IMG/VR virus record: IMGVR_UViG_3300025764_000005
Coordinates: 1 to 49,551 of that record
Source of the DNA: a virus
DNA length: 49,551 bases
Strand: one strand, 5' to 3'
The translations under genes and the position numbers were made by a program. The notes beneath the pieces were generated by a model. The model was not told where the DNA came from. It worked only from the letters and a program-made list of their open reading frames with translations, and ran no database searches. Shown here in pieces: positions 13,408 through 48,293 of the stretch (position 1 is the first letter of the stretch; each line of letters opens with the position of its first letter).

Positions 13408-13441
13408 AGAGTATCACACAATTCAGCGTTTGTTACCCTCC
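13408..13441 (-). promoter_or_regulatory. Promoter of the GGAGGGTAR-N19 family, SSB operon
   Basis: On the minus strand: GGAGGGTAA (13441-13433), 19 bases ending TGTGA, then TACTCT (13413-13408). It matches four other sites at box, spacing and the GTGN before the hexamer. An overlapping GATACT two bases upstream could serve as an alternative -10. Drives SSB and the downstream replication genes. Confidence 0.6.
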
Positions 13442-13445
13442 GCTT

Positions 13446-13637
13446 TCAGTAAGTCGACTTTGCGATGGCGGCGCGGAAACTGATGCCGGTCAGGACGCCG
13501 ACGACCAGGGTGATGATCTGCACGTACACACTGTCCACAGAGACTACGCCGGCCGATGCCAGCACGCCGATGATGCCGAGGACGATGGTGCCGATTACGG
13601 ATTTCTTGCCGTCCAAAAATGCGATGATTTCATTCAT
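13446..13637 (-). CDS. Holin-like protein with two TM segments, 63 aa
   Basis: ATG at 13637 behind GAAGGGAGG. After MNEIIAFLDGKKS come two hydrophobic helices (residues 13-33 and 38-55) and a short polar end (RAAIAKSTY), the size and layout of small class II holins. The amidase at 15310 is in the same leftward operon, supporting a lysis role. It resembles small phage holins of Gram-positive hosts by general features only. Confidence 0.6.
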   Translation of the reverse strand: MNEIIAFLDGKKSVIGTIVLGIIGVLASAGVVSVDSVYVQIITLVVGVLTGISFRAAIAKSTY

Positions 13638-13947
13638 GTGAACCTCCCTTCTCTGTTTCATTGTTCCGTTCATCCCACCAAGCGGGGTTAGAGACCAGCA
13701 CCCCGTACAGAGCAACCTCCAGCGCCATGATCGTGTCGTGCTTGAGTTCCAGATACATAGATGCGTTGATGGCCTCAATAACCTCATGCAGAAGTACGGA
13801 CGCCTGAGTTTCCGGGTGCTGGTCACCGTCGATAGTGATGTCTTGGCGACAGTTGCAGCAGGCCCCCGTGGCATCGTCGCCCATGGGCTGGACGGTAACG
13901 CTATAGGTGCGGTCACATATCTTGAGGGTGGGAGGGATTGTGCTCAT
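13630..13947 (-). CDS. HExxE-motif phage protein (zincin-like), 105 aa
   Basis: ATG in the previous stop (ATGA), same start context (GGTGGAGCGATGAGCA) as the gene at 12213. ICDRTYSVTVQ is an N-terminal strand, CCNCRQDITID follows, and LLHEVIEAINASM is then followed by LKHDTIMALEVALYGVL. Many Gram-positive phages encode a protein with this build and LHE(I/V)(I/V)(H/E)AI, thought to be a small metalloprotease-like fold. Here the third ligand position is Glu, not His, so activity is uncertain. Confidence 0.6.
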   Translation of the reverse strand: MSTIPPTLKICDRTYSVTVQPMGDDATGACCNCRQDITIDGDQHPETQASVLLHEVIEAINASMYLELKHDTIMALEVALYGVLVSNPAWWDERNNETEKGGSHE

Positions 13948-14180
13948 CGCTCCACCCTCATCTCGTCGATGTGGGGGAACCACCAATACATAACTTCCAG
14001 GTTCGTCTCCACGTCATCGCGAAGCTCAGACCACAGCGACCACACCCGGACCCCGCCATCCTTGCGACGCAGCTTCACCACGTCGTCGTCACTGCCGAGC
14101 ACCTCGTTGCCGTCACGGAATATTTGTACGTTCCGCGTTCCAAACAGGCGGCGGCGAATGCGGGCTTCAAGGATCGTCAT
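13944..14180 (-). CDS. Hypothetical protein, 78 aa
   Basis: ATGA-coupled both ways. Beta-rich with many charged and aromatic residues (VQIFRDGNEVLGSDDD, VRVWSLWSELRDDVET). No family recognised. Confidence 0.65.
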   Translation of the reverse strand: MTILEARIRRRLFGTRNVQIFRDGNEVLGSDDDVVKLRRKDGGVRVWSLWSELRDDVETNLEVMYWWFPHIDEMRVER

Positions 14181-14329
14181 TGGGCGCTTCCCTCCTCCAC
14201 CAGTAAGACGAAGTCATACGTGCAGCCGCCCCACGCCAGCGTGGGCAGCCCACTAGCCCCACAAGTGCCCTGCGGGCCATCCTTCTGCTTGTAATGAGTG
14301 CAATTACAACACCGGCAAACATCTGCCAT
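14177..14329 (-). CDS. Cys-rich Zn-module protein, 50 aa
   Basis: ATG behind GGAAGGAC; the stop overlaps the next ATG. Translates MADVCRCCNCTHYKQKDGPQ then GTCGASG...GGCTYDF, a stand-alone CxxC...C...C module of the kind attached to coiled coils elsewhere in the window. Probably binds one zinc. Confidence 0.65.
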   Translation of the reverse strand: MADVCRCCNCTHYKQKDGPQGTCGASGLPTLAWGGCTYDFVLLVEEGSAQ

Positions 14330-14351
14330 CTACAGCCGTCCTTCCGCGCCC

Positions 14352-15122
14352 TTAAGCATTTACGAGTGTGGGATGTGTGCTCTCGGATTTGCGCGAGCGA
14401 CTCCACGCATCGCACTCGTTGCACTGCCATCTCTGGTAGGTGCAGGTTGCCGTGTGGGAGAAGCCCCTGCGCTGTAGGGATGTAGAGCTGCACCGTGGGC
14501 AGACATCCTCCACCGAGGATAGGCTCCCGAGGTTGGGATGAGAGACAATGAAGGGACGCAGCTCATCGTAGAGGTTGGACAACAGCACCACGTCTTGGTT
14601 GCAATACTTCTTCATCTTTTTCCACGCACCCATGTCGCCGTCTACGCAGTCGCGCCAGAGCTTGCCGTGTGTATCCTTTGGCTTGCTGCCAAGTGCGAGC
14701 TTCTCGCAGAGGTCGTTCAGGGAGTTGGACGCCATCCTGAAGTAGCGACGAGCAGCCAGGAGAGTGTCCACGCTCTTGTATGGAGAGGGCGGGCCAAGGT
14801 GATGGAAAAGGAACCTTGCAGTGGCTATGCGGTTGTCAAACTTGTTAGCGTTGTGTGCCACCACGATGTCCGCCTTGTTCATAAGCTCCCATAGCTTCTT
14901 GACTACCATGTAATCACTGTGGGGATCGTCCTCGTACTGGTCCCAGGAGTCGGGCTGGGCCACGTTGTGGACCTTCTTCTCGCCGTACCACTTATACGAG
15001 AAGCACATGATGTAGCTGTCTCTCTCCACGGATATAATGTTGGTATCCCAGATTTTATATGTCCATCCTAAAATCGGGGTCACTTCGAGGTCGTACATTA
15101 GGATTCGGGGCGTGCCCGTCAT
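14352..15122 (-). CDS. DEDDy 3'-5' exonuclease (RNase H fold) with C-terminal zinc ribbon, 256 aa
   Basis: ATG at 15122 is fixed by an ATGA overlap and AAAGGGAA upstream; an in-frame ATG 16 codons earlier lies inside the neighbour. Exo I YDLEVTP (D11, E13), Exo II VAHNANKFDNR (D96) and Exo III YCNQD (Y173, D177) make a full DEDDy site. The C-terminus has CPRC (208-211) and CNEC (234-237), a zinc ribbon likely for DNA contact. It resembles the exonuclease domain of DNA polymerases, but no polymerase domain is attached or found nearby. Probably proofreads or degrades DNA ends. Confidence 0.85.
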   Translation of the reverse strand: MTGTPRILMYDLEVTPILGWTYKIWDTNIISVERDSYIMCFSYKWYGEKKVHNVAQPDSWDQYEDDPHSDYMVVKKLWELMNKADIVVAHNANKFDNRIATARFLFHHLGPPSPYKSVDTLLAARRYFRMASNSLNDLCEKLALGSKPKDTHGKLWRDCVDGDMGAWKKMKKYCNQDVVLLSNLYDELRPFIVSHPNLGSLSSVEDVCPRCSSTSLQRRGFSHTATCTYQRWQCNECDAWSRSRKSESTHPTLVNA

Positions 15123-15313
15123 GCGTTCCCTTTCCCGGGAAAGACTTTCTCCGGCCTCGGAACGCAGCACGCGGGGACCTGATGCTCGCTGAACATCATT
15201 TTTTCAAAAGGACACTGTTCACCGTAGGTCTCACGATACTTGCGCATAGCTAAGACGATAAAGACGCATCGGTGGTGGTCGGCGCAATATTGTTCACAGA
15301 CGTTCAAGCTCAC
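15119..15313 (-). CDS. Cys-rich small protein, 64 aa
   Basis: GTG at 15313 overlaps the amidase stop (GTGA) and the end overlaps the exonuclease ATG. Contains CEQYCADHHRC and later CPFEKM...CC, enough Cys/His for one or two metal sites. No family recognised. Confidence 0.6.
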   Translation of the reverse strand: MSLNVCEQYCADHHRCVFIVLAMRKYRETYGEQCPFEKMMFSEHQVPACCVPRPEKVFPGKGNA

Positions 15314-15969
15314 GAGGTGATCGTGTTGAAATGATAGTACTTGCCTGGGCAAGCTGTGCTGTTGCCCGACATGTTGCGGTGCTGCCAGTCGGGCCGCCCG
15401 TACTTCTTGTGCAGGTAGTTGTGGACTGCCTGCGCGGCCTTGAGCTGCACGGTCGGCATGTCGTCGTGGGCCTCGTAGTTGCCCTCCAGGCAGACGCCGA
15501 TGCAGTCGTTGTGGCCGAGGCAGTGAGCACCCATGGTGTTCTCGGGGCGGCCGGCGTCGACCTCGCCGTTGCGGCGAATGTAAAGGTGATAAGCGATGCC
15601 GCGATCACCGATGTTAAGGTGAACCTGGTGGATTTGCTGGGCGGAGCCCAAGCCTGCGGCGTGATGCCAGACGATGCCAGGAGGACTGCCACGCCGCGCG
15701 ACCGGCGCACCGTTCCACTTGTAGTGCGGATAGATGATGTGAAGTTTCGGCACGAGGTTCGGGAACAGTGCCGCGACGAGCTGGTCTGTCTTGCGCGCCG
15801 ACTGCGTGATCTTCTTGCCGTGCTCTCGCATGTGGCCCGAGACGCGCCATGCGAGGGTCGCCTTGCCTATCCCCCACAGGGAGTTCTTGGTGCTGGGATT
15901 GCCAGTGTCGAGCTTGTGGACCAGGGCATACGACAGCATCTTCTGCGTGGTCGAGATATTCGATGGCAT
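15310..15969 (-). CDS. N-acetylmuramoyl-L-alanine amidase (endolysin), 219 aa
   Basis: Cleaves the bond between muramic acid and the stem peptide. Amidase_2/PGRP core: IVWHHAAG (H102-H103), YHLYIRRNGEVDAGRP (127-142), GAHCLGHND, then H197 and NSTACPGKYY (C207), giving the zinc ligands His, His, Cys. The N-terminal about 90 residues (helical, basic) are an extra domain of unknown role rather than a known wall binder. No signal peptide, so release needs a holin. Strong SD CCGGAGG and its own promoter (16012-16045). Confidence 0.88.
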   Translation of the reverse strand: MPSNISTTQKMLSYALVHKLDTGNPSTKNSLWGIGKATLAWRVSGHMREHGKKITQSARKTDQLVAALFPNLVPKLHIIYPHYKWNGAPVARRGSPPGIVWHHAAGLGSAQQIHQVHLNIGDRGIAYHLYIRRNGEVDAGRPENTMGAHCLGHNDCIGVCLEGNYEAHDDMPTVQLKAAQAVHNYLHKKYGRPDWQHRNMSGNSTACPGKYYHFNTITS

Positions 15970-16011
15970 ACATTACCTCCGGCTAGATTTTCATAGTCGT
16001 TCCGTAGACTT

Positions 16012-16045
16012 AGTATACCACGTCTCAGCAAAAAGCCTACCCTCC
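16012..16045 (-). promoter_or_regulatory. Promoter of the GGAGGGTAG-N19 family, amidase operon
   Basis: Minus strand: GGAGGGTAG (16045-16037), 19 bases ending ACGTGG, then TATACT (16017-16012), an extended -10. The box is part of the 3' arm of the late terminator. Start of transcription is expected near 16005, about 35 bases before the amidase ATG. Confidence 0.7.
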
Positions 16046-16061
16046 GCGCCGGAGGGAAGGC
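16030..16061 (-). terminator. Rho-independent terminator of the late operon
   Basis: On the minus strand GCC-TT-CCCTCCG, a three-base loop and CGGAGGG-TA-GGC, followed by TTTTT. It ends the leftward late transcript just after the 23-aa membrane peptide. Its stem embeds the GGAGGGTAG promoter box. Confidence 0.8.
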
Positions 16062-16086
16062 CCCCTGTTCTGCTCTTGCTCTTATG

Positions 16087-16158
16087 CTAAAGTTGTCTTA
16101 ACAGAACGACTGCGATGACGACGACGACAAGCACTATCAAGATGGTCTCAAGGTTCAT
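16087..16158 (-). CDS. Tiny single-TM peptide at the end of the late operon, 23 aa
   Basis: ATG behind a strong GTAGGAGG. Translates MNLETILIVLVVVVIAVVLL plus RQL: one hydrophobic helix with a basic end. It follows the peptidase gene and precedes the terminator, so a lysis accessory role (holin, antiholin or spanin-like) is plausible but unproven. Confidence 0.55.
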   Translation of the reverse strand: MNLETILIVLVVVVIAVVLLRQL

Positions 16159-16167
16159 GTGCACCTC

Positions 16168-16926: not shown

Positions 16927-16933
16927 GGGCACC

Positions 16934-27479: not shown

Positions 27480-27493
27480 ATTATAACACAGGT
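27480..27493 (-). promoter_or_regulatory. Extended -10 promoter of the capsid gene
   Basis: Minus strand ACCTGTGT-TATAAT (27493-27480), perfect -10 with TGTG in front; no clear -35. The same ACCTGTG(T/G)TATA(A/C)T string occurs before the portal gene and the 35-aa gene. Confidence 0.65.
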
Positions 27494-29817: not shown

Positions 29818-29847
29818 AGTCAGCACCCCCTTTCTGTTGCTTCTCTA

Positions 29848-29861
29848 ATTATACCATACCC
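29848..29861 (-). promoter_or_regulatory. Extended -10 promoter before the 578-aa gene
   Basis: Minus strand GGGTATGG-TATAAT (29861-29848): consensus -10 with TGG in front. About 30 bases upstream of the ATG; lies in the short gap after the giant gene. Confidence 0.6.
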
Positions 29862-29866
29862 TGACA

Positions 29867-32800
29867 TCACTTAGAAGTGTCCAGAAGGTCGTAGATTAGA
29901 TTCCCTCCGGCAGCCTTATCAGCTTCTCCCCACTGACGATAGAAGCTCTTGCTGATAGGAGCTTTCGCGTTAGTGAAAGCGTGAAGGTTCTGCTTCATCC
30001 AGTTCTGCACTGTTTCGCCATACTTGCTCTCTATGGTCCAACCCTTGTACCACCCGTAGGGGTTATTACTTTTGGTAAGCGCATCGCGTCCCTGAGCCGC
30101 TAGTCTGAATGTGAAGTCCCAGCTTAGGGCACGCGTGGCCTCATCCCAGTTGGCCCGCAGTTCCGGTGAAGCCTTCTGCTTGAGCTTTAGAATGTTCTTC
30201 GCCGTGACGACGCCGGGAGTGCTGTAGAGCGTGGTCCGCATCTTCCCCCACTCAGCCATCGTCTTCGGACTCGCGTCCACGAAAGCGGGCTTGTCGAGAG
30301 CAAGCTGGCCGGTGCCGAGGAGCTTGGGCGCAGACGCCCCGATGTAGGGCGCAAGCAACTTGTTCTTCGTCTTTACAGTGTGGATGTAATCTTGCAGTTT
30401 GTAATACTCGGCCTTGTATTCCTTGGTAGCGAACGTCAGCTTCTTGAGAGCCGCACTGCGCTTCTCAATCTCGGTGAGGAAGCCCAGAAGCTTGTTCCCT
30501 AGCGCCGGAGCAGTCTTTTCGTTCCAACCTTTGCCGAAGAGCGCCCAGTCGTCGGAATGGACGCTGCTCTTGTAGGGCGCGAGGGCGGCGGTGAGGAAGC
30601 GGCGCTGGATACCAGCAATCTCCTCCTTGCGCATCCCCAGGTACTGATCGTAGCGCCGTGAGCCCTGCACAAGCTCCTTGCCCCAGAGCAAGCCCGAACC
30701 CTCCAGGCGCTTCATGCCCTCATAGTCATTCTGACTGAGTTGCGTTTCTTGCGTCCGGCCCAGCATGTCGGGGAAGAGGTAGGGGTTGTTGAATAGGTGC
30801 TTCTCCCCGGCCTGCTTCAGCACGGTGGTGTGCTCCTTGAGGCCCACGGGCTTGTTGTCGGTCAGAAGAAGGCGGTCCATCTCGCCCAGAGTTTCTCCCG
30901 GGAGTTTCTTGTTGTGGTCTTTGTAGAACTTCGCTTGGCGCGGCTTGAAATACGCGTCCCAAAACCCCATCTTGGGATCGTCGGCGGCGGACTTTGCCTG
31001 ACCCTTGAGCCCCTTGTACTTCTCCGCAAAGCCCTTCTTCCAGAGCTTCTCCTGCGCCTGGTATGCCTGCGAGAGCACGTACTTGTCGACCTGGTTGTAA
31101 CGAGTCTTCATACCACCGGCGATGGTGGCAGGGTCAAGCAGGTCGCCGGGCTCAGTAATGGGGGATGCGTCGTCTGCACTGGGTTCACGCCTCTGACTGA
31201 CGAGAGGGATGACCCAGCGATTCTTGGAGAGGTAGTCGAGCTGCTTCTCGCCGTGCAGGTCCCACGCCTTTTCCACGGCAGCATACTCCGGATAGTCAGC
31301 GAGCACCTTGGCCTTGGCCTCCGGCGTGACCGCAGAGAGATACTGCCACTGGGCCGTAGCAATGCGGCCCATGTCTATGTTCACCGTGGTACCGTCGGGC
31401 TGCTTGGCCGTGAACTTAGCCGTCTTTGCGCTCCACGTACCAGGGAGAAGCCACTGTATGGCACCCTTGCCCGCCTCCTGCTTCCTCACGGCCATGGTGG
31501 CAGCACCAGCGTTGATACCTTTTCCGTCTGTCTGCATGGCCTGCCTGACCATCTCCGCGATGATGCGCTTCTTACGGGAGGTGTCGATTTGCTCGCTACC
31601 CGGAGCAGGGATGTGGAGGGCTTTTGCGGCGTCATAACCCGTTGTGCCGAGGGCTCCCCAGATAAGTGAGTCGAGCCAGCGCATTTGCGGGCCACCCGGC
31701 TCGAAGCCACCGTTGAGGCGCTTGTAGAAGGCGACTGCATCCGGCTGGCCGGTGAGTGTCGAGACTTCGGCGGGCACGGTGATCGTGGGGGCCAGTGGCG
31801 GCAGCCAGCTCTGATTGCCCTCTCCGCTGAGCCCGGCGAAGAAGTTCATCGACTGCGGGTTCCACTGGACGCCGCCAAGGACGGGCACGGTGTCGGGGAT
31901 GCGCACGGGAGGTAGGGACGAGAGTCCCTTCATCAACTGGTGAGTACCGAAGGGATGCGTCGCAAATCGCTTGGCCCACCACGTCAAGAACTGGCGGTAA
32001 GCGGGGAGGAACATAACGACGTTGCGCATGTTCTCCTCGACGAGGGTGCGGCCGGAGAGGTAGGAGAGTTCGTCCGTCTTAGCGACGGCGTACTTGCGGG
32101 ACACCTCCATCTTCTCAAGGCGCGGCATATCAATTCCCTTGAGGGTCGCCATGCGCTCATCAAAGAAGTTGCCGAACTCCTGCTTCTTCAGGTGCGTAGC
32201 CATATGCTCAAGTGTCCCGAGAATCGTGTCAGAAATCTTGAGCGGTAGGGCGAGTGATGGGCTCCCGACAGGGATGCGCTCGATGGCGTACTGCACGGGT
32301 CCATAGATGTTCTGCACGGTCGCGCTCTTGAGGTCCTTAGGGTCGATCTTGCCGGTACGCAGGTGAAGCTCCGTGACGTTGTGGCTCATCATGGCGTGGA
32401 TTTTACGATTGTATTCGTCCCCAATGTCCTTTATCCACGGCGTATTGTCCAAACCCTCAGCAAGGAGCTGCGGATCGAAGGCGTTAGGGTTACGTGTGGG
32501 GAGCAGGCCGGTGAGCTTGCGCCCGTCAGCCGTGGTGCCGCCTATGTAGCGCGGATCGCTGCGCATCATGCGCCCAAGCTCCGCGTCTGCTGCGGCTGAC
32601 GCCTTGGCCTTGCGGAGGGCAATCTGGTCGCGCTCGCTGAGGACGGGAGTTGGTGCGACCTTGGGTTCGTCAAGGCTACTGAGCGGGACAGACTCCTTGG
32701 GTGATCCGGCCTGTAGACGAGCGATTTCGGCTTCTATCTCGGAAAGCCTAGCGTTAGCCTCTGTCGCGGTAGCGCCTGCTTTCTCAGTCCCCTGCTTTTG

Positions 32801-35800
32801 CAGCCACCCCCACAGGTCACCGCTGTCGAAGATGTCAAAACCAGTTTCATCGGCGATAAGGACCGCCAGTTCGTCCATCGGCACTCCGCCCTCTTTAGCG
32901 TCGAGATACGCGAACTTCCTGCGGTTCTCGCCAATAGTCACGTCACCAGCCTTCCCACTCGGCTTCGACCAGTGAGGATCGTCGCGCGAAATACCACCCT
33001 TTGCCCTGATGTATCCGCGCAAATCTGCGTCCGTGATCGGCTGGTCGATATTTACGGGGGCGCGTGCTTCCGGCTTGCCCTCAATGAGAATCGAGGCTTC
33101 TCGCTCAAGGTCCGCTATTTGTGCGTCCACCCCAACGCCCGGCGCTACATCGGCAACCTTCGGAGGCTTCACCGTTGGGGCGAACTTGGCGCGTTCAGCC
33201 TCCGCTACCAGGTCGGCGTATGCTGCGTCGTTAGCCTCTAGCCAATCCTTGACCGGCATGGACGTTTCGGCATTGAAGGTCTTAAGTGACTGATGTACGC
33301 CCATGTTGCGCGTTGTAATGTCAGCGGCATCGGGGCCTATCTCACCCCAATCGGTCGCCCTTTTGATGTCAGTGATGCCGAGGATGTCCACCGTTGTTGA
33401 GGGACTGCGCAGTGCTGCCTCCGCAGCATCGGCGGACATCGTGCCCTCAAAGCCAGGGAGCTTTCTCAGGCCCTTGATACCGCCAACGGGGTTGACACCG
33501 TTCAACATTCCTCTGAGCATCTCGTCGGAGCCGATGATGGTGAGCATGGTGCCCATGCGCGAGAGCCACATACGTTTGAAAGCGGAGTTGATGTCGGTGA
33601 GGTGGAGCATCTTCTGGGTGATAGCCCACTGCTGCATGGTCTTCCCGCCCGAGAAGATGGCCAGCTCGGTGGGGGTGTAGTCGGGTGAGAATGTCTTGGC
33701 GAACTGCGCCTCCGTGGCAGCAGTCGGCATACCAACAACCTGCGGGTCCATGATTTCGAGTTCGTGGACGGCGACCTGTTTGGAGGTTTCAGCACTCGCG
33801 CGCTTCTTAGCAAGAGAGGCCGCAGTCTTGGCGTCAGCACCGGGGAGCCTCTTGTCTATGTCGTCAATTACCTTGTTGGCAGCTCGCACCTTCTCCAGCA
33901 CGGGGGCCGTGAGTTCTACGGGGAGCCCAAGCGAGCCCTCCTGAAGGCGGTCGGCCACAGTCGCACCGGGTTTGAGAGAGTATCCAACGCGCGTAGCCGT
34001 CTTCTCTACCCCCACACCCTTGCCACGGAATCGGCGTAGGAAGGAGTTCAGCTCATCGAGCTTCGTGGATGCCCCGTTCTCAGCGATAAACTTCGCCGAT
34101 GCTTTCTGCCCCCCAAGGTGCTTCTCGATGAAAGCGTTGAAGCCGGTCTTCGGATGCGTCAGATAACCACGCACCGCCATCTCGGGAAAGTCAGCAGCGT
34201 CGAGGCGGGCCTTTATGAGTCCGTCCACGAAGTCGTGAGCCGTCTTCGAGTCCACGCCCGCGTATCGCAGGGTCCCGAGGACCTGATGCTCTGTGTCCAC
34301 AACGGTGTCGAATACGCCCTCGGGTAGTGGGGCCATGAACGCCCTGTACCACGGGGCGAGCTTGGTATCACCAGTCATCTTGACGCGAAGGTTCTGCGCG
34401 ATGGAACGTGCGGTGAAGTGCGTGTCGGGGTCGAAGTAGGCGGCCAGATTCATTTCCTTAGCCGCCTGTCCGGGCACTACATCCCCAACGGTCGGAACGT
34501 CTCCTCCCTGCATGTGTTCCCATAGGACGGTGCGAAGGTCCTCGGGGATGGCTGTGCCCGACTGCTCAAACTTGGCCCTGACACCCGTGGTCACATCATC
34601 CATAAGCCGCTGTGCTTCTGCATCAGATAGACGCCCGCTGTCAATAGCGTCTGCTACCTCGTCAAGTGTTGTGGGTCGCTGGTACTGTGTGCGAATGGTG
34701 CGTCCGTCTCGAAGCTTCGTACCCTCTGTTACAAACCCTGGCTCGACCAAACGAGCCGAGTCACCCGACAGACTCGTGGTGTCGTGTGCCCCTCGTGCGC
34801 TTGTTCCTCGAATCCTCTCAGCAAGGCCCCTGATACGAGAAGAGATTCCGGCTGCCACGGGCACTGGTGCACCCCCCCCCGTGGCGGGACCTTTCAGCTT
34901 GAGCAGCATCTCGTCGAGGTTGTTGATCTTGGCGAGTTCTCTAGCCGCTGCCGGGGTGACGTTGTAGAGTTCCATGATACGGGATGGACTTGTCGCCGCC
35001 GTGAGAATCTCAGCATGACTCTGCACTTGGAAAGCCTTGAGTGCGGCTAACGCTGGGGGACTCACGGCCGCGGCGCCAACTACCGCAGCGGCACCAGCCT
35101 GGAGGATAGGACACCAAGCCGTGTCCATCCCCATCTGAGCCCAGAACGCGATGAACTCGTGTTTCGCCGGGTCAACCCCGGCCTCAGAGAGATACTCGTA
35201 CATGATGCTACGGCCAGAACTCAGCTTCCACGCTTTTGTAGCCGTCTCTAGTTGACTAGCCCAACTCTGTGCGTGGTCTACGGCATCCTGGTTCGGGTAG
35301 GTCTTTCCTGTCGGGTCAAGGGTTGAGACCACGTTTCCGGCAGCATCCTTCGTGACGGTCCACTCGGCCTTACCGCCCGGCTTAAAGCTGGGGTCAATCT
35401 GCAAGAGTGCGTTAAACCGATACGCAACCATGATGCGATTGGCCTCGGTAAAGGGAACCTGAGCGTACTTGTTCGCCACTCCTACCGTCTTGCTCACGCC
35501 GCCGTGTAGTTCCTTGATGGTAGAGCCAACTACGGGGGCGGTCTCGGGGGCGTTCCACATCCAGCTTGCTGCCTTGGCGACGGGCGGGCCGGGGGCGGCC
35601 ATCTCCCTGGTAACGAAATCGCCCAGCTTGCCAGAAGTGGCCACAAAGTGCCACACAACCTCGGGGGGCGACTTCATAAAATCAAAGACGGTCTGAAAAA
35701 CGTTACCCTTGCTGACTCCCTGAGCCCCTGCTTGTTCGGTCTGGGGGAGGTTCTCGGTGCCCCACTTCTTCGCGTACCAGAGTGCAAACCCGGACTCGCT

Positions 35801-37189
35801 CACATTCGGCGGGCGGGCCGACAGGGAAGCCCCGTAGACTGCTGTGAGGAACTGGTCGGAATCAATACCTCCCATGTCCTGCGCGAGTTTCCCGAGGTCG
35901 GGACCGCCGCCCTGCACGTTTGTACGCGCCAATATCTCGCTGGCGTCGCCCTTCTCGTGAGGGTCTTTCGAGAAGACAGCCGCCGCTATATTGGCGTTGT
36001 AGACGAACTGGTTGACCTGGGAGACGTAGGGCATGACGGAGCCGATGGTGCCGAGCGGGTCGCTCTTGGCGGGAGTGAATCCCCTGTCGGAAAGTGCCTT
36101 CTGAACAGCCTTCCTCTGAGCGTCGTCAAGACCCATAAACCAATCGAGATCGCGTGCGCCGGGAGGGACAACCTCGGGCTTTATGCCAAGGTACTCCTTC
36201 GGGTTCCCAAAAGCAGCATCCATCTTGTTCGTGGTTTCGTAGAAGTTCCCGGCGAGATGCTTTACCTGGTTCCAAACCCCACCCGTACCGAAGCTCCAGA
36301 AGCCGGGATGGTTGCCCGTATCCGGGTCGGGTGCCTTGGAGAAGTCGGCCTTCTTGAACATGAGGTCGGCGGTAGGACCGCCCAGGGCTATTGCGTCGTC
36401 TGCGGGCGGCGGGACTTTCGACGGATACTTATGCGCCGTCTGCATGAACTTCATCCACGCATCGGCACCGGGAGTACCAACCCCGGCCTGAAGTACATAA
36501 GGGGATGTGGCGGAGGGTTCGAGGTCGGTCATGGAGAGCCCAGCGGAGAGTAGGTCTACCATCTTCTGCGGGCCGGGGATCGTGCCGGTAGCCTGCCACT
36601 GGCCGAGTGCGATGTCCCTGACCGGCTGGTCTGCGGGAGGCACGGGTATGTCCGATGCCTGCGGGGTCGGCTCAGGGGCGATGGCGGCGGCCAGGTTGTC
36701 GGTGATCGGCGTCCTGCTCCGCGAGAGGATGTCGTTGCCACCGTTCTGGGCGTAAGAGTCGAGTACGCCCTGATATTTCTTGGTCGGCTGGAGTAAGTTC
36801 TTCTCGTGGAACGCATGGTAGTCGAGGCCCCCCGCCCCGATGTTGACCTTCTCGCCACTGGCGTTCGGGACGCTGATGCCACCGTGCTTTTTCAGTCCCC
36901 CAATCCACTTGCGGGCGGTGTCGATGGCCTGCGCCAGTTCTTTGGTTTCCGGCTTGTGGGTCGTCCACGCAAGGCGCTGCATGTACTGAGCGTCTTTGAT
37001 GCCCAGCGGCTTCCCCGCCTGCGACTTTTTCGCGATGGCAATGAATGGCGCGATGCTCTTGACGCGACCGGAGCCGCTAGGACCCTTCGGAGCGGCGGGA
37101 GCAGCGGGCGCGTGAGCAGCCGGCGGCTTCTTCTTCTTTTTCTTGTAGTATCGGGTGGGGGTAGCCGCCCCTCCGCGAATGATTGCCAC
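29867..37189 (-). CDS. Giant virion/polyvalent protein, 2440 aa
   Basis: GTG start just after the 125-aa gene. It takes about 15% of the window. A basic tip (KKKKKK, residues 16-21) leads to a Pro/Ala-rich linker and helical domains. A hydrophobic Ala/Val stretch (about 695-725) could insert into a membrane. Residues about 1385-1465 (LRGYIRAKGGI...GVPMDELAVLIADETGFD) recall small modules of phage polyvalent proteins. About 1700-1760 contains ENMRNVVMFLPAYRQFLTWW, similar in feel to conserved segments of large ejection proteins. No polymerase, transglycosylase or protease motif was found by eye. Most likely an ejected head protein delivering functions into the host. Confidence 0.7.
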   Translation of the reverse strand: MAIIRGGAATPTRYYKKKKKKPPAAHAPAAPAAPKGPSGSGRVKSIAPFIAIAKKSQAGKPLGIKDAQYMQRLAWTTHKPETKELAQAIDTARKWIGGLKKHGGISVPNASGEKVNIGAGGLDYHAFHEKNLLQPTKKYQGVLDSYAQNGGNDILSRSRTPITDNLAAAIAPEPTPQASDIPVPPADQPVRDIALGQWQATGTIPGPQKMVDLLSAGLSMTDLEPSATSPYVLQAGVGTPGADAWMKFMQTAHKYPSKVPPPADDAIALGGPTADLMFKKADFSKAPDPDTGNHPGFWSFGTGGVWNQVKHLAGNFYETTNKMDAAFGNPKEYLGIKPEVVPPGARDLDWFMGLDDAQRKAVQKALSDRGFTPAKSDPLGTIGSVMPYVSQVNQFVYNANIAAAVFSKDPHEKGDASEILARTNVQGGGPDLGKLAQDMGGIDSDQFLTAVYGASLSARPPNVSESGFALWYAKKWGTENLPQTEQAGAQGVSKGNVFQTVFDFMKSPPEVVWHFVATSGKLGDFVTREMAAPGPPVAKAASWMWNAPETAPVVGSTIKELHGGVSKTVGVANKYAQVPFTEANRIMVAYRFNALLQIDPSFKPGGKAEWTVTKDAAGNVVSTLDPTGKTYPNQDAVDHAQSWASQLETATKAWKLSSGRSIMYEYLSEAGVDPAKHEFIAFWAQMGMDTAWCPILQAGAAAVVGAAAVSPPALAALKAFQVQSHAEILTAATSPSRIMELYNVTPAAARELAKINNLDEMLLKLKGPATGGGAPVPVAAGISSRIRGLAERIRGTSARGAHDTTSLSGDSARLVEPGFVTEGTKLRDGRTIRTQYQRPTTLDEVADAIDSGRLSDAEAQRLMDDVTTGVRAKFEQSGTAIPEDLRTVLWEHMQGGDVPTVGDVVPGQAAKEMNLAAYFDPDTHFTARSIAQNLRVKMTGDTKLAPWYRAFMAPLPEGVFDTVVDTEHQVLGTLRYAGVDSKTAHDFVDGLIKARLDAADFPEMAVRGYLTHPKTGFNAFIEKHLGGQKASAKFIAENGASTKLDELNSFLRRFRGKGVGVEKTATRVGYSLKPGATVADRLQEGSLGLPVELTAPVLEKVRAANKVIDDIDKRLPGADAKTAASLAKKRASAETSKQVAVHELEIMDPQVVGMPTAATEAQFAKTFSPDYTPTELAIFSGGKTMQQWAITQKMLHLTDINSAFKRMWLSRMGTMLTIIGSDEMLRGMLNGVNPVGGIKGLRKLPGFEGTMSADAAEAALRSPSTTVDILGITDIKRATDWGEIGPDAADITTRNMGVHQSLKTFNAETSMPVKDWLEANDAAYADLVAEAERAKFAPTVKPPKVADVAPGVGVDAQIADLEREASILIEGKPEARAPVNIDQPITDADLRGYIRAKGGISRDDPHWSKPSGKAGDVTIGENRRKFAYLDAKEGGVPMDELAVLIADETGFDIFDSGDLWGWLQKQGTEKAGATATEANARLSEIEAEIARLQAGSPKESVPLSSLDEPKVAPTPVLSERDQIALRKAKASAAADAELGRMMRSDPRYIGGTTADGRKLTGLLPTRNPNAFDPQLLAEGLDNTPWIKDIGDEYNRKIHAMMSHNVTELHLRTGKIDPKDLKSATVQNIYGPVQYAIERIPVGSPSLALPLKISDTILGTLEHMATHLKKQEFGNFFDERMATLKGIDMPRLEKMEVSRKYAVAKTDELSYLSGRTLVEENMRNVVMFLPAYRQFLTWWAKRFATHPFGTHQLMKGLSSLPPVRIPDTVPVLGGVQWNPQSMNFFAGLSGEGNQSWLPPLAPTITVPAEVSTLTGQPDAVAFYKRLNGGFEPGGPQMRWLDSLIWGALGTTGYDAAKALHIPAPGSEQIDTSRKKRIIAEMVRQAMQTDGKGINAGAATMAVRKQEAGKGAIQWLLPGTWSAKTAKFTAKQPDGTTVNIDMGRIATAQWQYLSAVTPEAKAKVLADYPEYAAVEKAWDLHGEKQLDYLSKNRWVIPLVSQRREPSADDASPITEPGDLLDPATIAGGMKTRYNQVDKYVLSQAYQAQEKLWKKGFAEKYKGLKGQAKSAADDPKMGFWDAYFKPRQAKFYKDHNKKLPGETLGEMDRLLLTDNKPVGLKEHTTVLKQAGEKHLFNNPYLFPDMLGRTQETQLSQNDYEGMKRLEGSGLLWGKELVQGSRRYDQYLGMRKEEIAGIQRRFLTAALAPYKSSVHSDDWALFGKGWNEKTAPALGNKLLGFLTEIEKRSAALKKLTFATKEYKAEYYKLQDYIHTVKTKNKLLAPYIGASAPKLLGTGQLALDKPAFVDASPKTMAEWGKMRTTLYSTPGVVTAKNILKLKQKASPELRANWDEATRALSWDFTFRLAAQGRDALTKSNNPYGWYKGWTIESKYGETVQNWMKQNLHAFTNAKAPISKSFYRQWGEADKAAGGNLIYDLLDTSK

Positions 37190-37981: not shown

Positions 37982-38184
37982 CACTTGCCCCATTTTCTGG
38001 CGTTGATCGCGAACACGAGTTGCTTTATCAGTGCGGTGTTACCCGCCTTTTTGGCAGCGGCTAGTTTCGCTTTCAGCTCCGAAAGGGGGATATTCTTGCC
38101 CTTTGGTGCGCCCATCTTCTTACGCAGTTTGCCGACGTTCTTTTTCTTGATATGGATTCCGCTCGGGGATTTCTTCGCCGCCAT
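37981..38184 (-). CDS. Small very basic protein, 67 aa
   Basis: ATG overlaps the portal stop. Lys-rich throughout (MAAKKSPSGIHIKKKNVGKL) with a helical second half (LSELKAKLAAAKKAGNTALI). Nucleic-acid binding is likely. Possibly a DNA-condensing head protein, a completion factor, or a homologue of small basic proteins found next to phage portals. Its MAAKK start is also seen in the 35-aa protein at 48326. Confidence 0.6.
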   Translation of the reverse strand: MAAKKSPSGIHIKKKNVGKLRKKMGAPKGKNIPLSELKAKLAAAKKAGNTALIKQLVFAINARKWGK

Positions 38185-40436
38185 TACATGCCACCGCCCG
38201 CAAGCGCAGCCAGCTCAGGAGGCAGACCTTCAGGTGGTGCCCCTCCATCCTGGGGCGTTTGTGGGGGTCCGGAAGGCTCCGCGCCTGTAGGTTCTCCGCC
38301 CGCCACCTGCTTCGTCTGTTCATCAGGACTAGGAGCGCCCTGCTTGAACCGGAGGTGCCCATAGATCACGTCGACCTTCTCGGCGGCCCGCGTGATAGTG
38401 CCCTGGTCCTGCGGGTCCGTAATCCAGACCGTAACGAACCAGTTGTCGGAGGCGAACTTCTCCGGAGCGAGGAAGGGGTCGCCGCCGAACCAGACGCTAC
38501 CCTTCAGCTTGGGGATGCCCCGGAAGAACTCTTCGATGACGCTGATGAGTTGATTGGTCGGGTCGGTACTACCGTTCGCGCCCGCCGTGGCCGGGGGAGC
38601 TTCGCCCTCTGCGCTCGGAGGCGCTCCAGTCTCACCCATGAAGCCGCGCTCCAGACCGTAGTTGGTCTGCTGCTGATCGGACAGCGGGGTATTGGCAGTC
38701 ATGCCACTATTGGCGACTTGCTGACTCATGGCGAGGCCCTCGGCCTTCCACTTGCGGTCGCGGTCTATGGCGGAGCGTGTGCGCTTCTTGTTGGTGATTT
38801 GCGGGAGGTCGTCGGCAACGGAGTCCCAGTCAATCAGCTCGTTCTGGTAGAGCTGCATCAGCTCCACGGCGTTGCCCTGCCGGTCCATGTAGCTCTGGGC
38901 CGCTAGGTAAACTTCAATCTCAGTCCACATCTGACCGTTGACCACGAAGTCGTCAGGAGTAGCCTCGATGTAGTAGGTGACCTTGTTCTTCGAGCCCGAG
39001 AGCTTCAGGGTCCCGGTAACACCGGGGAAGTCCTTCCACATCATCAGCATGTACTTTATGACTTGCTTCCACGCACTCATCACAATGTCGAGGCGAGTCT
39101 GCATCCGCGCGGCGATGGGGCCGAGCTGGGCGTTGAAGCCCTTGCCCGTGATAATGGAGCCGCCACCCTCGGAGCGCAGGACGGCGGGGTTGTCGGCAAT
39201 CAGGTCAAACCACGTCTGGAGAGTGCTAGAGAGCTGCCAGAAGGCATTCGGCAGCCCGATGGGGCCAAGGACTTCGGCAGAGCCGTTGGGTCCCATGGTG
39301 GCCACGCCGCCCTTGCCGATAGCGAGGTCGGGGGGCACGTTGAGCGGGTCCTTGATAACGATGGTCGGCTTGACCATCGCGGAGGCCATCTCGTCGATCA
39401 GGCTCATGTGGTAGTTGATCTGCTTGGCAACAGGAATGGCGTCCTTGATGTCCGTGCCCCCGAAAATCATGCCGGGGAGGCCGAGGGCTCCGACGCAGAC
39501 GATGGGCACGATGCCCATAAGATTCTTTACCGGAGGATGCGCCCACTCGGTGCCGTCAAGGACAGTGTAGAAGTTCTCCTCGTCGATACACTGGATGACC
39601 TCTACGTCGTTCCGACCGATATACTTGTTGTTCCCCCAGCGTGCCTCGATGTCGTTGCCGTTCATAACCTCCATCCACAGCGCCTTGGTCAACTCAAGAC
39701 CGTCTGGGTCGTAGGACACTGGGTAGAAGTCCTGCGGAGTCCTCGTGAAGATGCGGGGGCACTCGTGCCGGAAGTCGGGCCACACGCCGATGACCGCGCC
39801 GTCCATAGCGCACATAGACCACGCGATGTCACGGCAACGCTTGGGCATGTTGCTGAAGGCGAGCAGCGAGGAGATGGCCTGCTCCAGCCGGTCGGCGAAG
39901 TCGATACCCCAGTCCTGGCCAGAGTCACCCGTGGAGGCGGCTATGCCGGGGGGAAGTGGACCGGGGGGCGCTGGGCCAGTTGGGCCAGCAGGCAAAGCCT
40001 CTGGACCGGAGGCCGGTGGGCCTACGCCCAGCCCCCCCGGAATTGCGGTCAGGCTCGCCGTTCCCGCCGTCGTGGCGGGAGGGCCTGACGTTGCTCCTGC
40101 GGTGCCAGGGGATGCACCTGGAGCCAGTTGCGGCGGCGGCTCAATAACTCGCACCGTGGGAGGCAGTGCGAGGAACGCCACCTTGTTCTCGATTGCAGGT
40201 TTGATGAGGTTGATCGGAGTGGTGAGCTGGGTGTCCTCTTCACCCTCCTTGGGAGTAAACACCGAAGAGAGGGCCTTGGTGATACCCGACATGAACCCCT
40301 GCTTCTTGGTTTCATTGAGGGTCGAGCCCGCGTAGAACTTCAAAACCTCGTCGTAGGAGTTGTTACGAGCTGCATCGCGCTCCTTGAGCTGCGCATACAG
40401 GTCGACGACCTTTGATGCCCCACTACTCGACGCCAT
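38184..40436 (-). CDS. Portal protein, 750 aa
   Basis: Forms the dodecameric DNA gate at one capsid vertex. Identified by position (after terminase), size and pattern: an N-terminal helical part, residues 70-98 (TTPINLIKPAIENKVAFLAL), a central stem/wing with RCRDIAWSMCAMDGAVIGVWPDF, and DMIADNPAVLRSEG-like crown residues near 420. Residues about 99-175 are an unusual Pro/Gly/Ala-rich insertion, and the C-terminus is again Pro/Gly-rich. Strong SD AGGGGGTGG and its own extended -10 promoter. Confidence 0.8.
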   Translation of the reverse strand: MASSSGASKVVDLYAQLKERDAARNNSYDEVLKFYAGSTLNETKKQGFMSGITKALSSVFTPKEGEEDTQLTTPINLIKPAIENKVAFLALPPTVRVIEPPPQLAPGASPGTAGATSGPPATTAGTASLTAIPGGLGVGPPASGPEALPAGPTGPAPPGPLPPGIAASTGDSGQDWGIDFADRLEQAISSLLAFSNMPKRCRDIAWSMCAMDGAVIGVWPDFRHECPRIFTRTPQDFYPVSYDPDGLELTKALWMEVMNGNDIEARWGNNKYIGRNDVEVIQCIDEENFYTVLDGTEWAHPPVKNLMGIVPIVCVGALGLPGMIFGGTDIKDAIPVAKQINYHMSLIDEMASAMVKPTIVIKDPLNVPPDLAIGKGGVATMGPNGSAEVLGPIGLPNAFWQLSSTLQTWFDLIADNPAVLRSEGGGSIITGKGFNAQLGPIAARMQTRLDIVMSAWKQVIKYMLMMWKDFPGVTGTLKLSGSKNKVTYYIEATPDDFVVNGQMWTEIEVYLAAQSYMDRQGNAVELMQLYQNELIDWDSVADDLPQITNKKRTRSAIDRDRKWKAEGLAMSQQVANSGMTANTPLSDQQQTNYGLERGFMGETGAPPSAEGEAPPATAGANGSTDPTNQLISVIEEFFRGIPKLKGSVWFGGDPFLAPEKFASDNWFVTVWITDPQDQGTITRAAEKVDVIYGHLRFKQGAPSPDEQTKQVAGGEPTGAEPSGPPQTPQDGGAPPEGLPPELAALAGGGM

Positions 40437-40491: not shown

Positions 40492-40505
40492 ATTATACCA
40501 CAGGT
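40492..40505 (-). promoter_or_regulatory. Extended -10 promoter of the portal gene
   Basis: Minus strand ACCTGTGG-TATAAT (40505-40492), followed by TATAAG. Belongs with the capsid promoter by its ACCTGTG string; no GGAGGGTAG box. It gives the head genes transcription independent of the terminase promoter. Confidence 0.6.
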
Positions 40506-43438: not shown

Positions 43439-43472
43439 ATTGTACCACACATCTCAGTTTCCTCTACCCTCC
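43439..43472 (-). promoter_or_regulatory. Late promoter of the GGAGGGTAG-N19 family (leftward)
   Basis: Minus strand: GGAGGGTAG (43472-43464), 19 bases ending ATGTGTGG, then TACAAT (43444-43439). Back to back with the rightward promoter at 43488. Predicts transcription start at or next to the terminase small-subunit ATG (43431). Confidence 0.7.
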
Positions 43473-43487
43473 GCCAGCCGTAACCAT

Positions 43488-43521
43488 GGAGGGTAGACTC
43501 AGTTCCAGATCGTGCTATACT
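43488..43521 (+). promoter_or_regulatory. Rightward promoter of the GGAGGGTAG-N19 family
   Basis: GGAGGGTAG (43488-43496), 19 bases ending ATCGTGC, then TATACT (43516-43521). Together with the leftward box it forms a perfect 10-bp inverted repeat (TCTACCCTCC at 43463-43472 and GGAGGGTAGA at 43488-43497) with a 15-base centre. Drives the accessory operon. Confidence 0.7.
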
Positions 43522-45291: not shown

Positions 45292-45303
45292 TGTTTTGAG
45301 ACT

Positions 45304-45484: not shown

Positions 45485-45512
45485 CATACATACAACAGAA
45501 AGGAGTATCGTT

Positions 45513-46001
45513 TTGTTTGAGTTCAGCAACATGTTTTCTGTAGAGTTTTCCGCCGGATGTGACCCAGACGCCGTCGAGCCCCTCAGCATCATCAGTTACC
45601 TCTGCGAGGCAGGCAGGGCGGGATTCTTTGTCCACTTCCTGCGCGAGGGCTTTCCGCAGTGGCTGACCCTCTGCAAACTAGAGGAAGCGCTCATCGACAA
45701 CCGGCAGAATGAGGACTTCGTCTTTGTGGTCGGCGGCGTCGTCGGCGAGCCCGAGATCGAAGGCTGGCTTGAGTTCGGGGACTACATCCTGATCCCCTAC
45801 GGCCCCAAGATGCAACAGGCGAGCGGTGACCAGATGGGCGTCTGGACTCGTGAGGACTTCGACGAACTGGACTACAGCGTCTACGCCTTCTGCCCGGCGG
45901 ACGATGATTCCGGCATGGTGCTGAATCGTATGGTGAAGGTAGTTTGCCCCGAGCGCTACCCACTCGGAACGGGGTATCACGAGGTTGCTCATGTGGGCTG
46001 A
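45513..46001 (+). CDS. Hypothetical acidic protein, 162 aa
   Basis: TTG start seven bases behind AAAGGAG; a later ATG (codon 7) lacks an SD. An acidic, beta-rich protein with EDFVFVVGGVVGEPEIEGWLE and a hydrophobic aromatic centre. It may be under control of the structured leader upstream. No family recognised. Confidence 0.65.
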   Translation: MFEFSNMFSVEFSAGCDPDAVEPLSIISYLCEAGRAGFFVHFLREGFPQWLTLCKLEEALIDNRQNEDFVFVVGGVVGEPEIEGWLEFGDYILIPYGPKMQQASGDQMGVWTREDFDELDYSVYAFCPADDDSGMVLNRMVKVVCPERYPLGTGYHEVAHVG

Positions 46002-46071
46002 CATCGCAAGCATCGCCGCCATGCTGCTACTCGCGGGCCTGATGGCGTATGAAATTCACCGAGCAGAATGA
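45991..46071 (+). CDS. Tiny single-TM peptide, 26 aa
   Basis: ATG inside the end of the previous gene (11-base overlap). Translates MWADIASIAAMLLLAGLMAY plus EIHRAE: one membrane helix with a polar tail. Similar in type to the peptides at 4809 and 16087. Weak but plausible. Confidence 0.4.
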   Translation: MWADIASIAAMLLLAGLMAYEIHRAE

Positions 46072-46072
46072 C

Positions 46073-46249
46073 ATGAAGCCCTGCGAACGCACGAAGGAAG
46101 AGCTGCACGCTGAAATAGAGGGGCTGGCCCAGCACTACCTCGAAATGTCCGCAGACGAGTTCCTGAAGCGTGACATCCATGACGTTCCCGACACTCCGGC
46201 CGTGCGCTACATGCTCGTTCTCTCGGGCGCGCTGAGGACTCGTGCATGA
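46073..46249 (+). CDS. Hypothetical acidic protein, 58 aa
   Basis: ATG one base after the previous stop; an in-frame ATG at 46049 is an alternative. MKPCERTKEELHAEIEGLAQ is a charged helix, followed by HYLEMSADEFLKRDIHDVPD. Ends with an ATGA overlap into the HTH gene. Confidence 0.55.
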   Translation: MKPCERTKEELHAEIEGLAQHYLEMSADEFLKRDIHDVPDTPAVRYMLVLSGALRTRA

Positions 46250-46473
46250 CCCAGATCGCCCCCGACGCCCCCGTGCTTGTCTTCAAGGAGGCCAAGGAGT
46301 TGCTTCGCTGCAGCGCGTCGACCCTGCTGGACTGCATCCACGACGGCAGCGTGCCGGCGTTCAGGCTGGGACGTGGCTGGCGCTTCTACCGCGCCGACCT
46401 CATGGCTATAGAGTCGGCCGGAAGCGAACAGCGCGAGGATGCTGAGGTGCGCCCGATATGTTCCCACAGGTGA
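46246..46473 (+). CDS. xis: Excisionase-like helix-turn-helix protein, 75 aa
   Basis: ATG in the previous stop. Residues 11-55 (VFKEAKELLRCSASTLLDCI, then GSVPAFRLGRGWRFYRADLMAI) follow the MerR-type excisionase pattern: HTH, a short wing with (V/A)P-x-(F/Y)-R-x-G-x-x-(W/R)-R(F/Y), then a helix. It is the nearest HTH gene to the integrase, so a recombination directionality factor is the best guess. A transcriptional regulator is the alternative. Confidence 0.65.
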   Translation: MTQIAPDAPVLVFKEAKELLRCSASTLLDCIHDGSVPAFRLGRGWRFYRADLMAIESAGSEQREDAEVRPICSHR

Positions 46474-46709
46474 GCATGGACACCGCCAGACACCGATACC
46501 TAGGGCTCAATCGTGCCTGATTCCCGACCCACCAGCGTCCCCGAGCCTAGCCCCCCGTATCCTACACTTACGGGCGTTGGCGCGGGCCGCCATTTGAGAA
46601 TGTGCGCTTTTGCAGCGAGATCACGAGAACTGGACGCTGCGACAGTAAAAGAATCGGCGCCAAGGTGCGCCCGTTCGACGCCGCGTTCTGAAACGGGCTA
46701 TCAGCGAGG
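46474..46709. other. Intergenic region with inverted repeats beside the excisionase-like gene
   Basis: No supported gene. CTAGGGCTC (46500-46508) pairs with GAGCCTAG (46543-46550) with one bulge; CCCGTA (46554-46559) pairs with TACGGG (46569-46574); GCCCGTT (46669-46675) pairs with AACGGGC (46692-46698). Arms of 6-8 bp are not decisive in GC-rich DNA. It could hold the attP site, integrase or Xis arm sites, or a structured RNA. Confidence 0.35.
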
Positions 46710-46763
46710 ATGAACATGGACATAGGATATCGCAGGCAAATCAATCAGGGGGGGACGCCGTGA
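46710..46763 (+). CDS. Possible leader peptide, 17 aa
   Basis: ATG with GCGAGG just upstream encodes MNMDIGYRRQINQGGTP and its stop overlaps the GTG of the next gene (GTGA). The seven-G run near its end doubles as the SD of that gene. Could be a coupling leader rather than a functional peptide. Confidence 0.3.
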   Translation: MNMDIGYRRQINQGGTP

Positions 46764-47146
46764 GCGCAGTTGAGGAGTACAGACTGGCCGCAGACCGATG
46801 GGAAGTCGACTCTCACGACCACGGAGATGAGGCAGTAAACGCCGCCGACGCCGCCATCGCCGATCTGGAGGCTCATGCCGAGCATGACGAGGACAACCTG
46901 GCGGGCCTAGAGCACGCGCTGGTCCGGGCAAACCAGCGGTACACGCAGGCCGAGGCCGAGCGGGATTTTGCCGTCGACATTCTCGTCGTTCATGGCCTCG
47001 ACGCCAAGTTCTTCGATGGGGTCGGCTGGACGACGACCCTGACCGATTCACCCACCATCCCGACGGGGGCACGGGAGCGCATCAGAAAGATGCTTAGTGA
47101 GACTGACCGGCAGTCTTCTCCTGCACACCGGCCACCGCCTGATTGA
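46760..47146 (+). CDS. Hypothetical acidic coiled-coil protein, 128 aa
   Basis: GTG start behind AGGGGGGG. MSAVEEYR start as in the gene at 4005. Residues 35-80 are Ala/Glu/His-rich helix (ADAAIADLEAHAEHDEDNLA...ANQRYTQAEAERDF), a coiled coil. The 3' end overlaps the convergent integrase gene by 53 bases. No family recognised. Confidence 0.6.
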   Translation: MSAVEEYRLAADRWEVDSHDHGDEAVNAADAAIADLEAHAEHDEDNLAGLEHALVRANQRYTQAEAERDFAVDILVVHGLDAKFFDGVGWTTTLTDSPTIPTGARERIRKMLSETDRQSSPAHRPPPD

Positions 47147-48239
47147 GCGCCGCCACCGACCGCTCCCGCATACGCTCCGAGACGTGCGCGTAAATCTCGG
47201 ACGTGGTGCTCATCTGCGCGTGGCCGAGCATCTCGGAAAGGGTCTTCATATCGACGCCGGCCTCCAGCATTGCGGAGGCATACGAGTGACGTAGGTCGTG
47301 AAAGCGCATCGGCGGCAGTTCCAGACTGGCCAGCAGCTCGCGCCACGCCCCGTTCAAGACTTCGGGCTTCATCGGCTCCTCGCCGCCGCACACGTACCAG
47401 CCGTCCGGTTTGCCCTCCTTGGCGGGACCGAACACGGCGGCTGCGAACTCCGGCATCGGCACGACGCGCGCCTTGCCACCCTTTGGCAGCTTCTCGACCA
47501 GGCCCCTGCCCACGACGCGGCCGAGCTTGCGCGCCACCCGGAGCCGTCTGCCGATCACGTCAACGTCGCCCCACTTCATGCCGATGCACTCGCCGCGACG
47601 GGTGCCGGCGCTCATGGCGACCATCAGGGGCAGTGCCATCGTCGTGTCGCGCACCTTCTCCAGCACCATGAGCATCTGCCGCAGCGACAGCACCGGCCTC
47701 TCATCGGGACGCCCAGTCGGCAGCTTGGCCACGTCGGAATCGCAGACGTTGCGCAAGACGAGGTCGTGCGACCTCGCCCAGTGCAGAGCCCCGTGCAGGA
47801 TATCGTAGTAGTGGCTGACGGAAGACAGCGCGTAACCCTCGGCGCGAATCTGCCGCCAGAGTTCGGCAACGTGCGAGGGCTGCAGGGACAGGGCGCGGAT
47901 ATGCCCTATTGCGGGTCGCAGGTAGAGACGGACTGCGGAGTTGTACCCGGCCTGCGTCTCGGAGGCGTAGCGCTCGTCGTCGTCGACCCACTCATCGAGC
48001 CAGCGGTCGAAGAGGTCGCCCATGGTGAGCTTGTGACTCGGGACGACGCCGCCCTCGGCCTGTTGCTGCAAGTGCGCCAGAAGGTCGCGCGCCTTCTGCG
48101 GCGGGTGCTTCGTCAGCTTGGCGACCCGCACACTCCTCACGATCCTGCCGGCGTGGCGACCGTAGCCCACGGGGACGGTGACGTGCCAGGAGAAGGTGCC
48201 GTCCTTGTTGGCGCGTGGGGTCTTCCCGATGCTACCCAT
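47094..48239 (-). CDS. int: Tyrosine-type integrase, 381 aa
   Basis: Integrates and excises the prophage by site-specific recombination. An N-terminal strand-rich arm-binding-like domain (residues 1-60), a SAM-like core-binding domain (70-170), then the catalytic domain with R214 (AGTRRGE), Lys in LPKGGKARVV (250-259), H314-x-x-R317 (HDLRHSYAS), H340 (LGHAQ) and Y350 (EIYAHV). All catalytic residues are present and length is standard, so it should be active. The attP site is not identified; candidates are the gaps at 46474-46709 and 48240-48784. Confidence 0.95.
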   Translation of the reverse strand: MGSIGKTPRANKDGTFSWHVTVPVGYGRHAGRIVRSVRVAKLTKHPPQKARDLLAHLQQQAEGGVVPSHKLTMGDLFDRWLDEWVDDDERYASETQAGYNSAVRLYLRPAIGHIRALSLQPSHVAELWRQIRAEGYALSSVSHYYDILHGALHWARSHDLVLRNVCDSDVAKLPTGRPDERPVLSLRQMLMVLEKVRDTTMALPLMVAMSAGTRRGECIGMKWGDVDVIGRRLRVARKLGRVVGRGLVEKLPKGGKARVVPMPEFAAAVFGPAKEGKPDGWYVCGGEEPMKPEVLNGAWRELLASLELPPMRFHDLRHSYASAMLEAGVDMKTLSEMLGHAQMSTTSEIYAHVSERMRERSVAALNQAVAGVQEKTAGQSH

Positions 48240-48252
48240 GCGTGAATCTTAG

Positions 48253-48293
48253 CACAGGTGGAGGGTAGCGGCAACAGAGACCTGTGTTATACT
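48253..48293 (+). promoter_or_regulatory. Rightward promoter of the GGAGGGTAG-N19 family, with flanking inverted repeat
   Basis: GGAGGGTAG (48260-48268), 19 bases ending CCTGTGT, then TATACT (48288-48293). CACAGGT (48253-48259) and ACCTGTG (48280-48286) form a 7-bp inverted repeat around the box. Drives the 35-aa gene and the structured stretch behind it, divergent from the integrase. Confidence 0.7.

Follow-up and report, generated by a model that had tools for sequence, protein, structure and literature searches.

A family of phage promoters with a box at constant distance from an extended -10, probably the regulon of a phage-specific DNA-binding protein

Box promoters in the window

The window analysed here is IMG/VR virus record IMGVR_UViG_3300025764_000005, 49,551 bases of environmental DNA from a bacterial virus that encodes TerL, DnaB, an exonuclease, an amidase, the major capsid protein and an integrase. 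At five intergenic sites, each oriented toward one or more genes, a nine-base box, GGAGGGTA(G/A), stands exactly 19 bases upstream of a TANNNT hexamer. GTGN, hence a TGN extended -10, directly precedes the hexamer at all five. Both the positions and the GTGN had been reported in a sequence-only reading of the window, and both are confirmed. Two of the sites diverge. The promoter of the late block (217-amino-acid first gene, then TerL onward) occupies 43439..43472 (-), with the box at 43472-43464, the spacer at 43463-43445 and the -10, TACAAT, at 43444-43439; opposite to it, the accessory-block promoter occupies 43488..43521 (+) (box 43488-43496, TATACT 43516-43521). A third promoter, at 48260..48293 (+) (box 48260-48268, TATACT 48288-48293), diverges from the integrase gene and serves the gene of a basic 35-amino-acid protein (48326..48433 (+)), classed as a zinc ribbon from its translation, whose homologs in the related phages G001, G002 and G006 also have extended -10 promoters. 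The amidase-operon promoter lies at 16012..16045 (-) (box 16045-16037, TATACT 16017-16012), and that of an ssb-like/DnaB operon at 13408..13441 (-) (box GGAGGGTAA 13441-13433, TACTCT 13413-13408). As a side observation, the 35-amino-acid protein ends in a CPKCG zinc-ribbon motif, and its gene adjoins the integrase gene in G001, G002 and G006 too.

The gene labels of the sequence-only reading fared unevenly. Profile matches back terminase, DnaB, amidase and integrase. The label "SSB operon" has no profile match behind it; it relies on the 215-amino-acid first gene ending in DDDIPF, which we take to be an SSB-type C-terminal tip, and on DnaB downstream. Among isolated phages, TerL and the adjacent 750-amino-acid structural protein (38184-40436) have no match and the major capsid protein only distant ones. 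The DNA of the amidase/ssb region likewise matches no isolated phage record, and two bacterial-genome scans gave no prophage with TerL and the 750-amino-acid protein.

The five matches to GGAGGGTA(G/A)-N19-TANNNT in the window compare with 0.01 +/- 0.10 in dinucleotide-preserving shuffles, and none of 100 shuffles gave five matches of GGAGGGTARN19TANNNT. This comparison had been proposed as a check by the sequence-only reading, which took recurrence in coding DNA as a sign against its claim. Exact GGAGGGTA occurs six times in the window, five times with a -10 at the fixed spacing; the sixth copy, at 9613 (+), lies within dnaB and has no -10. The family also emerges from a test blind to the box, in which the 9-mers at a fixed offset from any TGNTANNNT site are compared with one another. 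At N19, the 35 such sites of the window gave 10 pairs that were at least 8/9 identical; shuffled sequence gave 0.13 on average and never more than 1. Neighbouring offsets score as well, since the 9-mers read there share bases with the same box.

A search of IMG/VR for GGAGGGTAG-N17-GTGN-TANNNT found single matches on 12 contigs; no second IMG/VR phage thus has the GGAGGGTAG box as a set. Viral-contig scans for the box with TATACT and for the box with GTGN also gave single matches per contig, on contigs with no apparent relation to the window, except for L011, whose sequence coincides exactly with a part of the window and which carries two box sites.

Other promoters of the window have no box. 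Those at 3159..3188 (+) (TTGACT-N18-TAGAAT) and 5858..5887 (+) (TTGACA-N18-TACACT, 22 of 30 bases the same in G001) are ordinary promoters, as had been claimed, and presumably early ones; the second serves the gene of a 95-amino-acid protein. Box-less extended -10s were also found upstream of the 750-amino-acid structural gene (TGG-TATAAT, 40492..40500 (-), with homologous promoters in G001, G002, G006 and G005), of the 28081-29826 gene (TGG-TATAAT, 29848..29856 (-)) and of the major capsid gene (TGT-TATAAT, 27480..27488 (-)).

Register and box in related phages

The relatives used for comparison are metagenome-derived viral contigs (G001, G002, G003, G004, G005, G006, L034, L046 and L047-L049). 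The closest, G001, has a TerL 93% identical to that of the window and a 127-bp terminal repeat. Five of its promoters carry GGATGGT(A/T)G at N19, and four of these five lie at the window's late, accessory, ssb-operon and amidase-operon junctions: GGATGGTAG-N19-TATAAT at 10857 (-), GGATGGTTG-N19-TATACT at 10872 (+), GGATGGTAG-N19-TAGGAT at 29838 (-) and GGATGGTTG-N19-TACAAT at 32717 (-), respectively. Two weaker sites, with the degenerate box GGATAGTGG at 13912 (+) and with AGATGGCAG at 14460 (+), each stand N19 from a perfect TATAAT extended -10. The 13912 site points at the G001 homolog of the 35-amino-acid gene, and all five window sites thus have counterparts in G001. Across the five orthologous pairs, identity is 78% in the box, 27% in the upstream DNA and 37% in the first 15 spacer bases. 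Base 4 of the box differs, G in the window and T in G001, in every pair.

In G006, a more distant relative, the box is an unrelated one, ACGAGTG, present at three sites that all lie N19 from TATACT (AACGAGTG twice, GACGAGTG once). Two form the divergent late/accessory pair, the accessory-block counterpart being the GACGAGTG site at 4594 (-), and the third precedes a gene adjoining the tail-region genes. Comparison of the same intergenic regions in related phages, also suggested at the outset, yields syntenic N19 sites in G001 and N19 sites with another box in G006. Altogether, the spacing is 19 at 15 of 15 sites in three phages (5 in the window, 7 in G001 including the 2 weak ones, 3 in G006).

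The GGAGGGTAG box spans about -40 to -32 and is centred near -36. That it occupies the -35 position is supported by L046, whose matching divergent junction, read by eye, has TTGACA-N18-TATACT in one direction and TTGACA-N18-TATAAT in the other and is best read as a pair of ordinary promoters; the ordinary promoters of the window have N18 as well. Palindromes at the -35 position were also read by eye, CAAGACCTTG in L034 and GTCAAGTTTGAC, overlapping TTGACA, in L046. No convincing common N19 box was found in G002, G004 or G005, and in G006 the counterpart of the small-gene promoter has the extended -10 without ACGAGTG.

Candidate readers and readings of the box

The five sites belong to a real promoter family, which is very probably a phage-specific regulon. 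The fixed spacing and gene positions, with a concerted change of base 4 in G001 and another box in G006, are as predicted for a phage-specific DNA-binding protein. The single promoter family with a dedicated factor that the sequence-only reading had proposed is thus well supported by the N19 sites of G001 and G006; as to the kind of factor, it had offered an activator, a repressor or an anti-sigma-type protein as possibilities. With somewhat more credence than doubt, we read the five sites as one regulon under a phage-encoded, sequence-specific DNA-binding protein, probably an activator. We infer that this reader is encoded by the phage; activation rather than repression is favoured by the exact spacing, the replaced canonical -35 and the box-less early promoters. 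An activator is also the most economical reading of a poor or absent -35 beside an extended -10, an exact register over 15 sites and late, lytic and replicative targets. The -10 hexamers point the same way: in the window and G001, a post hoc hand count gave a perfect TATAAT at 1 of 10 strong-box sites against 9 of 10 box-less or weak-box intergenic extended -10s, a contrast which points to the box supplying activity.

The likeliest candidate for the reader is a 95-amino-acid, MerR/Xis-like winged-helix DNA-binding protein at 5922..6209 (+), with PHROG matches to helix-turn-helix (HTH) and excisionase/regulator families. Its structure model, of moderate confidence, resembles the RdfS excisionase and BldC, with no match at E below 0.001. 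Among the sequences tested, its gene is present only in the window, G001, G002 and G006, as is that of a second candidate, a 146-amino-acid Cys4 protein (48785..49225 (-)); every phage with the box family has the 95-amino-acid gene. The 146-amino-acid protein, which is also a possible lysogeny regulator, has no family match and, apart from one weak match, homologs only in the other three phages. It has a CxxxxC...CxxxC motif, doubled in G002 and G006, and in all four phages its gene lies upstream of the integrase gene on the same strand. A structure model of this protein was discarded (pLDDT 43). Scanning of the window proteins against Pfam and PHROGs gave no sigma-factor or other regulator family except two small HTH proteins and, in an HNH endonuclease, a sub-threshold HTH stretch resembling sigma region 4.

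In the mechanism that we propose, the promoter core would be a host-type extended -10 (TGN-TANNNT) without a usable -35, and the box would sit where sigma region 4 normally touches the -35. The reader, produced from the ordinary TTGACA/TACACT promoter if it is the 95-amino-acid protein, would bind the box as an oriented unit, beside the region 4 contact or in its place. The late, lysis, replication, accessory and small zinc-ribbon genes would then be switched on jointly after early expression. If the reader is indeed the 95-amino-acid protein, the -35 contact would be replaced by a very small activator. More tentatively, the activator and its whole regulon may shift DNA specificity together, from GGAGGGTAG to GGATGGTAG to AACGAGTG, over short evolutionary distances, while the -10 register and most operons stay constant. 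Such regulon-wide rewiring of an activator, if true, would resemble what is usually described for immunity repressors. The set would then be a compact natural experiment in which a regulator and all its targets change specificity at constant promoter geometry. The regulon is moreover defined in a lineage in which neither the terminase nor the large structural protein beside it matches any isolated phage.

Known activators offer partial parallels. The CII protein of phage lambda is a small early DNA-binding protein that activates several dispersed promoters with a poor -35, from a -35 site in exact register. CII binds direct repeats on either side of the -35, whereas the box described here is a single asymmetric block, and no CII relative was identified. 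Another case is that of T4 middle promoters, where MotA boxes replace the -35 in a process of sigma appropriation that also involves AsiA; the MotA box, (a/t)(a/t)(a/t)TGCTTtA, lies 12 +/- 1 bp from the -10 and is centred at -30 (PMC6755090, PMC2988021). In both systems a short asymmetric phage box replaces the -35, the promoters are dispersed and serve phage operons, the sigma-70 -10 is kept, often in extended form, and the spacing is nearly fixed. They differ in that the box here is GGAGGGTAG, stands 19 bp from the -10, is centred near -36 and varies between related phages, and no relative of MotA or AsiA was found among the window proteins scanned. The likeness would therefore be functional, and the box family is not a member of the MotA/AsiA system. 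In the window, too, a box replaces the -35 and keeps a constant spacing to a sigma-70 -10, which is the mark of activator-dependent phage promoters.

Several observations weigh against the proposed mechanism. G002, which is close to G006, has the 95- and 146-amino-acid genes and, where its late, accessory, lysis-region and small-gene junctions correspond, extended -10s that share no box. The putative recognition helix of the 95-amino-acid protein is clearly unlike between the window and G001, yet the boxes differ by one base. G006 does not have the contrast in -10 strength described above. Finally, to judge by the box-less extended -10 promoters in these genomes, the core may function without the box, which would suit a repressor.

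A repressor is the main alternative, although we regard it as unlikely. The boxes would be operators of a lysogeny or timing repressor covering the -35 region of competent extended -10 promoters, and box turnover would reflect immunity diversification. An integrase is encoded, and the fast-diverging 146-amino-acid protein is encoded upstream of it on the same strand in four phages. Oriented, asymmetric, dispersed sites with a phage-specific consensus that changes with the repressor are, in addition, a hallmark of the L5 type; in cluster A mycobacteriophages, sites of the L5 repressor number more than 20, lie mostly off promoters and include the early promoter (PMC6550527, PMC9283540). The box family differs from that pattern: there are 5-7 sites, all at promoters and with base-exact spacing, and none at early promoters. 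Instead of many off-promoter sites and an operator at an early promoter, five of the six exact GGAGGGTA copies are at promoters, and 3159 and 5858 are box-less. Nor would a repressor need a base-exact spacing, yet N19 holds at 15 of 15 sites; none of the window proteins scanned was recognisable as a repressor.

It is quite improbable that the box is the loading site of a Q- or AlpA-like antiterminator that carries RNA polymerase through downstream terminators. The distance from box to -10 is fixed, as for the short element of AlpA, which also recruits a phage-type HTH protein, and late and lysis operons are among the targets. In the window and G001, a strong hairpin, GGCCCGC-tacg-GCGGGC, separates the ssb-operon promoter from its gene; G006 has a similar one and so, by eye, does G002. 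This hairpin failed to qualify in a terminator scan, though, and the other four window promoters have no comparable terminator downstream. The position differs too, as the AlpA element, GGGACG, lies between the -35 and the -10 (PMC9371919), whereas the box described here is on the -35.

Recognition of the box as the -35 element of an alternative sigma factor, from phage or host, would fit its location and fixed spacing but appears very improbable. The box promoters have the same extended sigma-70 -10 as the box-less promoters of the same phages, and a host sigma factor would need a changed -35 between close relatives. Apart from the sub-threshold stretch in the HNH endonuclease, no sigma family scored above the cut-off among the window proteins scanned, which were all but a few small open reading frames, and the RNA polymerase motif DxDGD was not found. 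Chance, or a by-product of terminator or repeat arms (CCCTCC/GGAGGG), receives next to no credence: a terminator-like hairpin at 16045 has the box as its 3' arm and the divergent pair makes CCCTCC/GGAGGG, but no such hairpin is seen at 13441, at 48260 or at the G001 amidase site, and the shuffles, the synteny and the G001 and G006 sites refute this origin.

Neighbouring elements

The spacer of the 95-amino-acid gene promoter contains an imperfect palindrome, CCTGAGTACCACTAGG, at 5864-5879 (+), with CCTAGCAGCCGCCAGG as its G001 counterpart; it is possibly a separate operator. Within the structural block, a 2440-amino-acid protein (29867-37189 (-)) matches neither Pfam nor PHROGs and lacks the DxDGD polymerase motif; similar-size versions occur in relatives.

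Close to the late and amidase promoters there is another repeated element, AAGAGCAAGAGCA, at 43575-43563 (-) and 16083-16071 (-) of the window and near these promoters in several relatives. Its copies lie in G001 (11037-), G002 (34192- and 10243+), G006 (4430+, 29339- and 29364+), G004 (51307+ and 26964-) and G003 (3681+), and thus include G004, which shows no box family.

The strong hairpin downstream of the ssb-operon promoter, GGAAGGCCCGC-tacg-GCGGGCTTTCC, occupies 13402-13376 (-), between promoter and gene, with the same layout in G001, G006 and G002. A terminator-like hairpin in this position suggests attenuation or antitermination.

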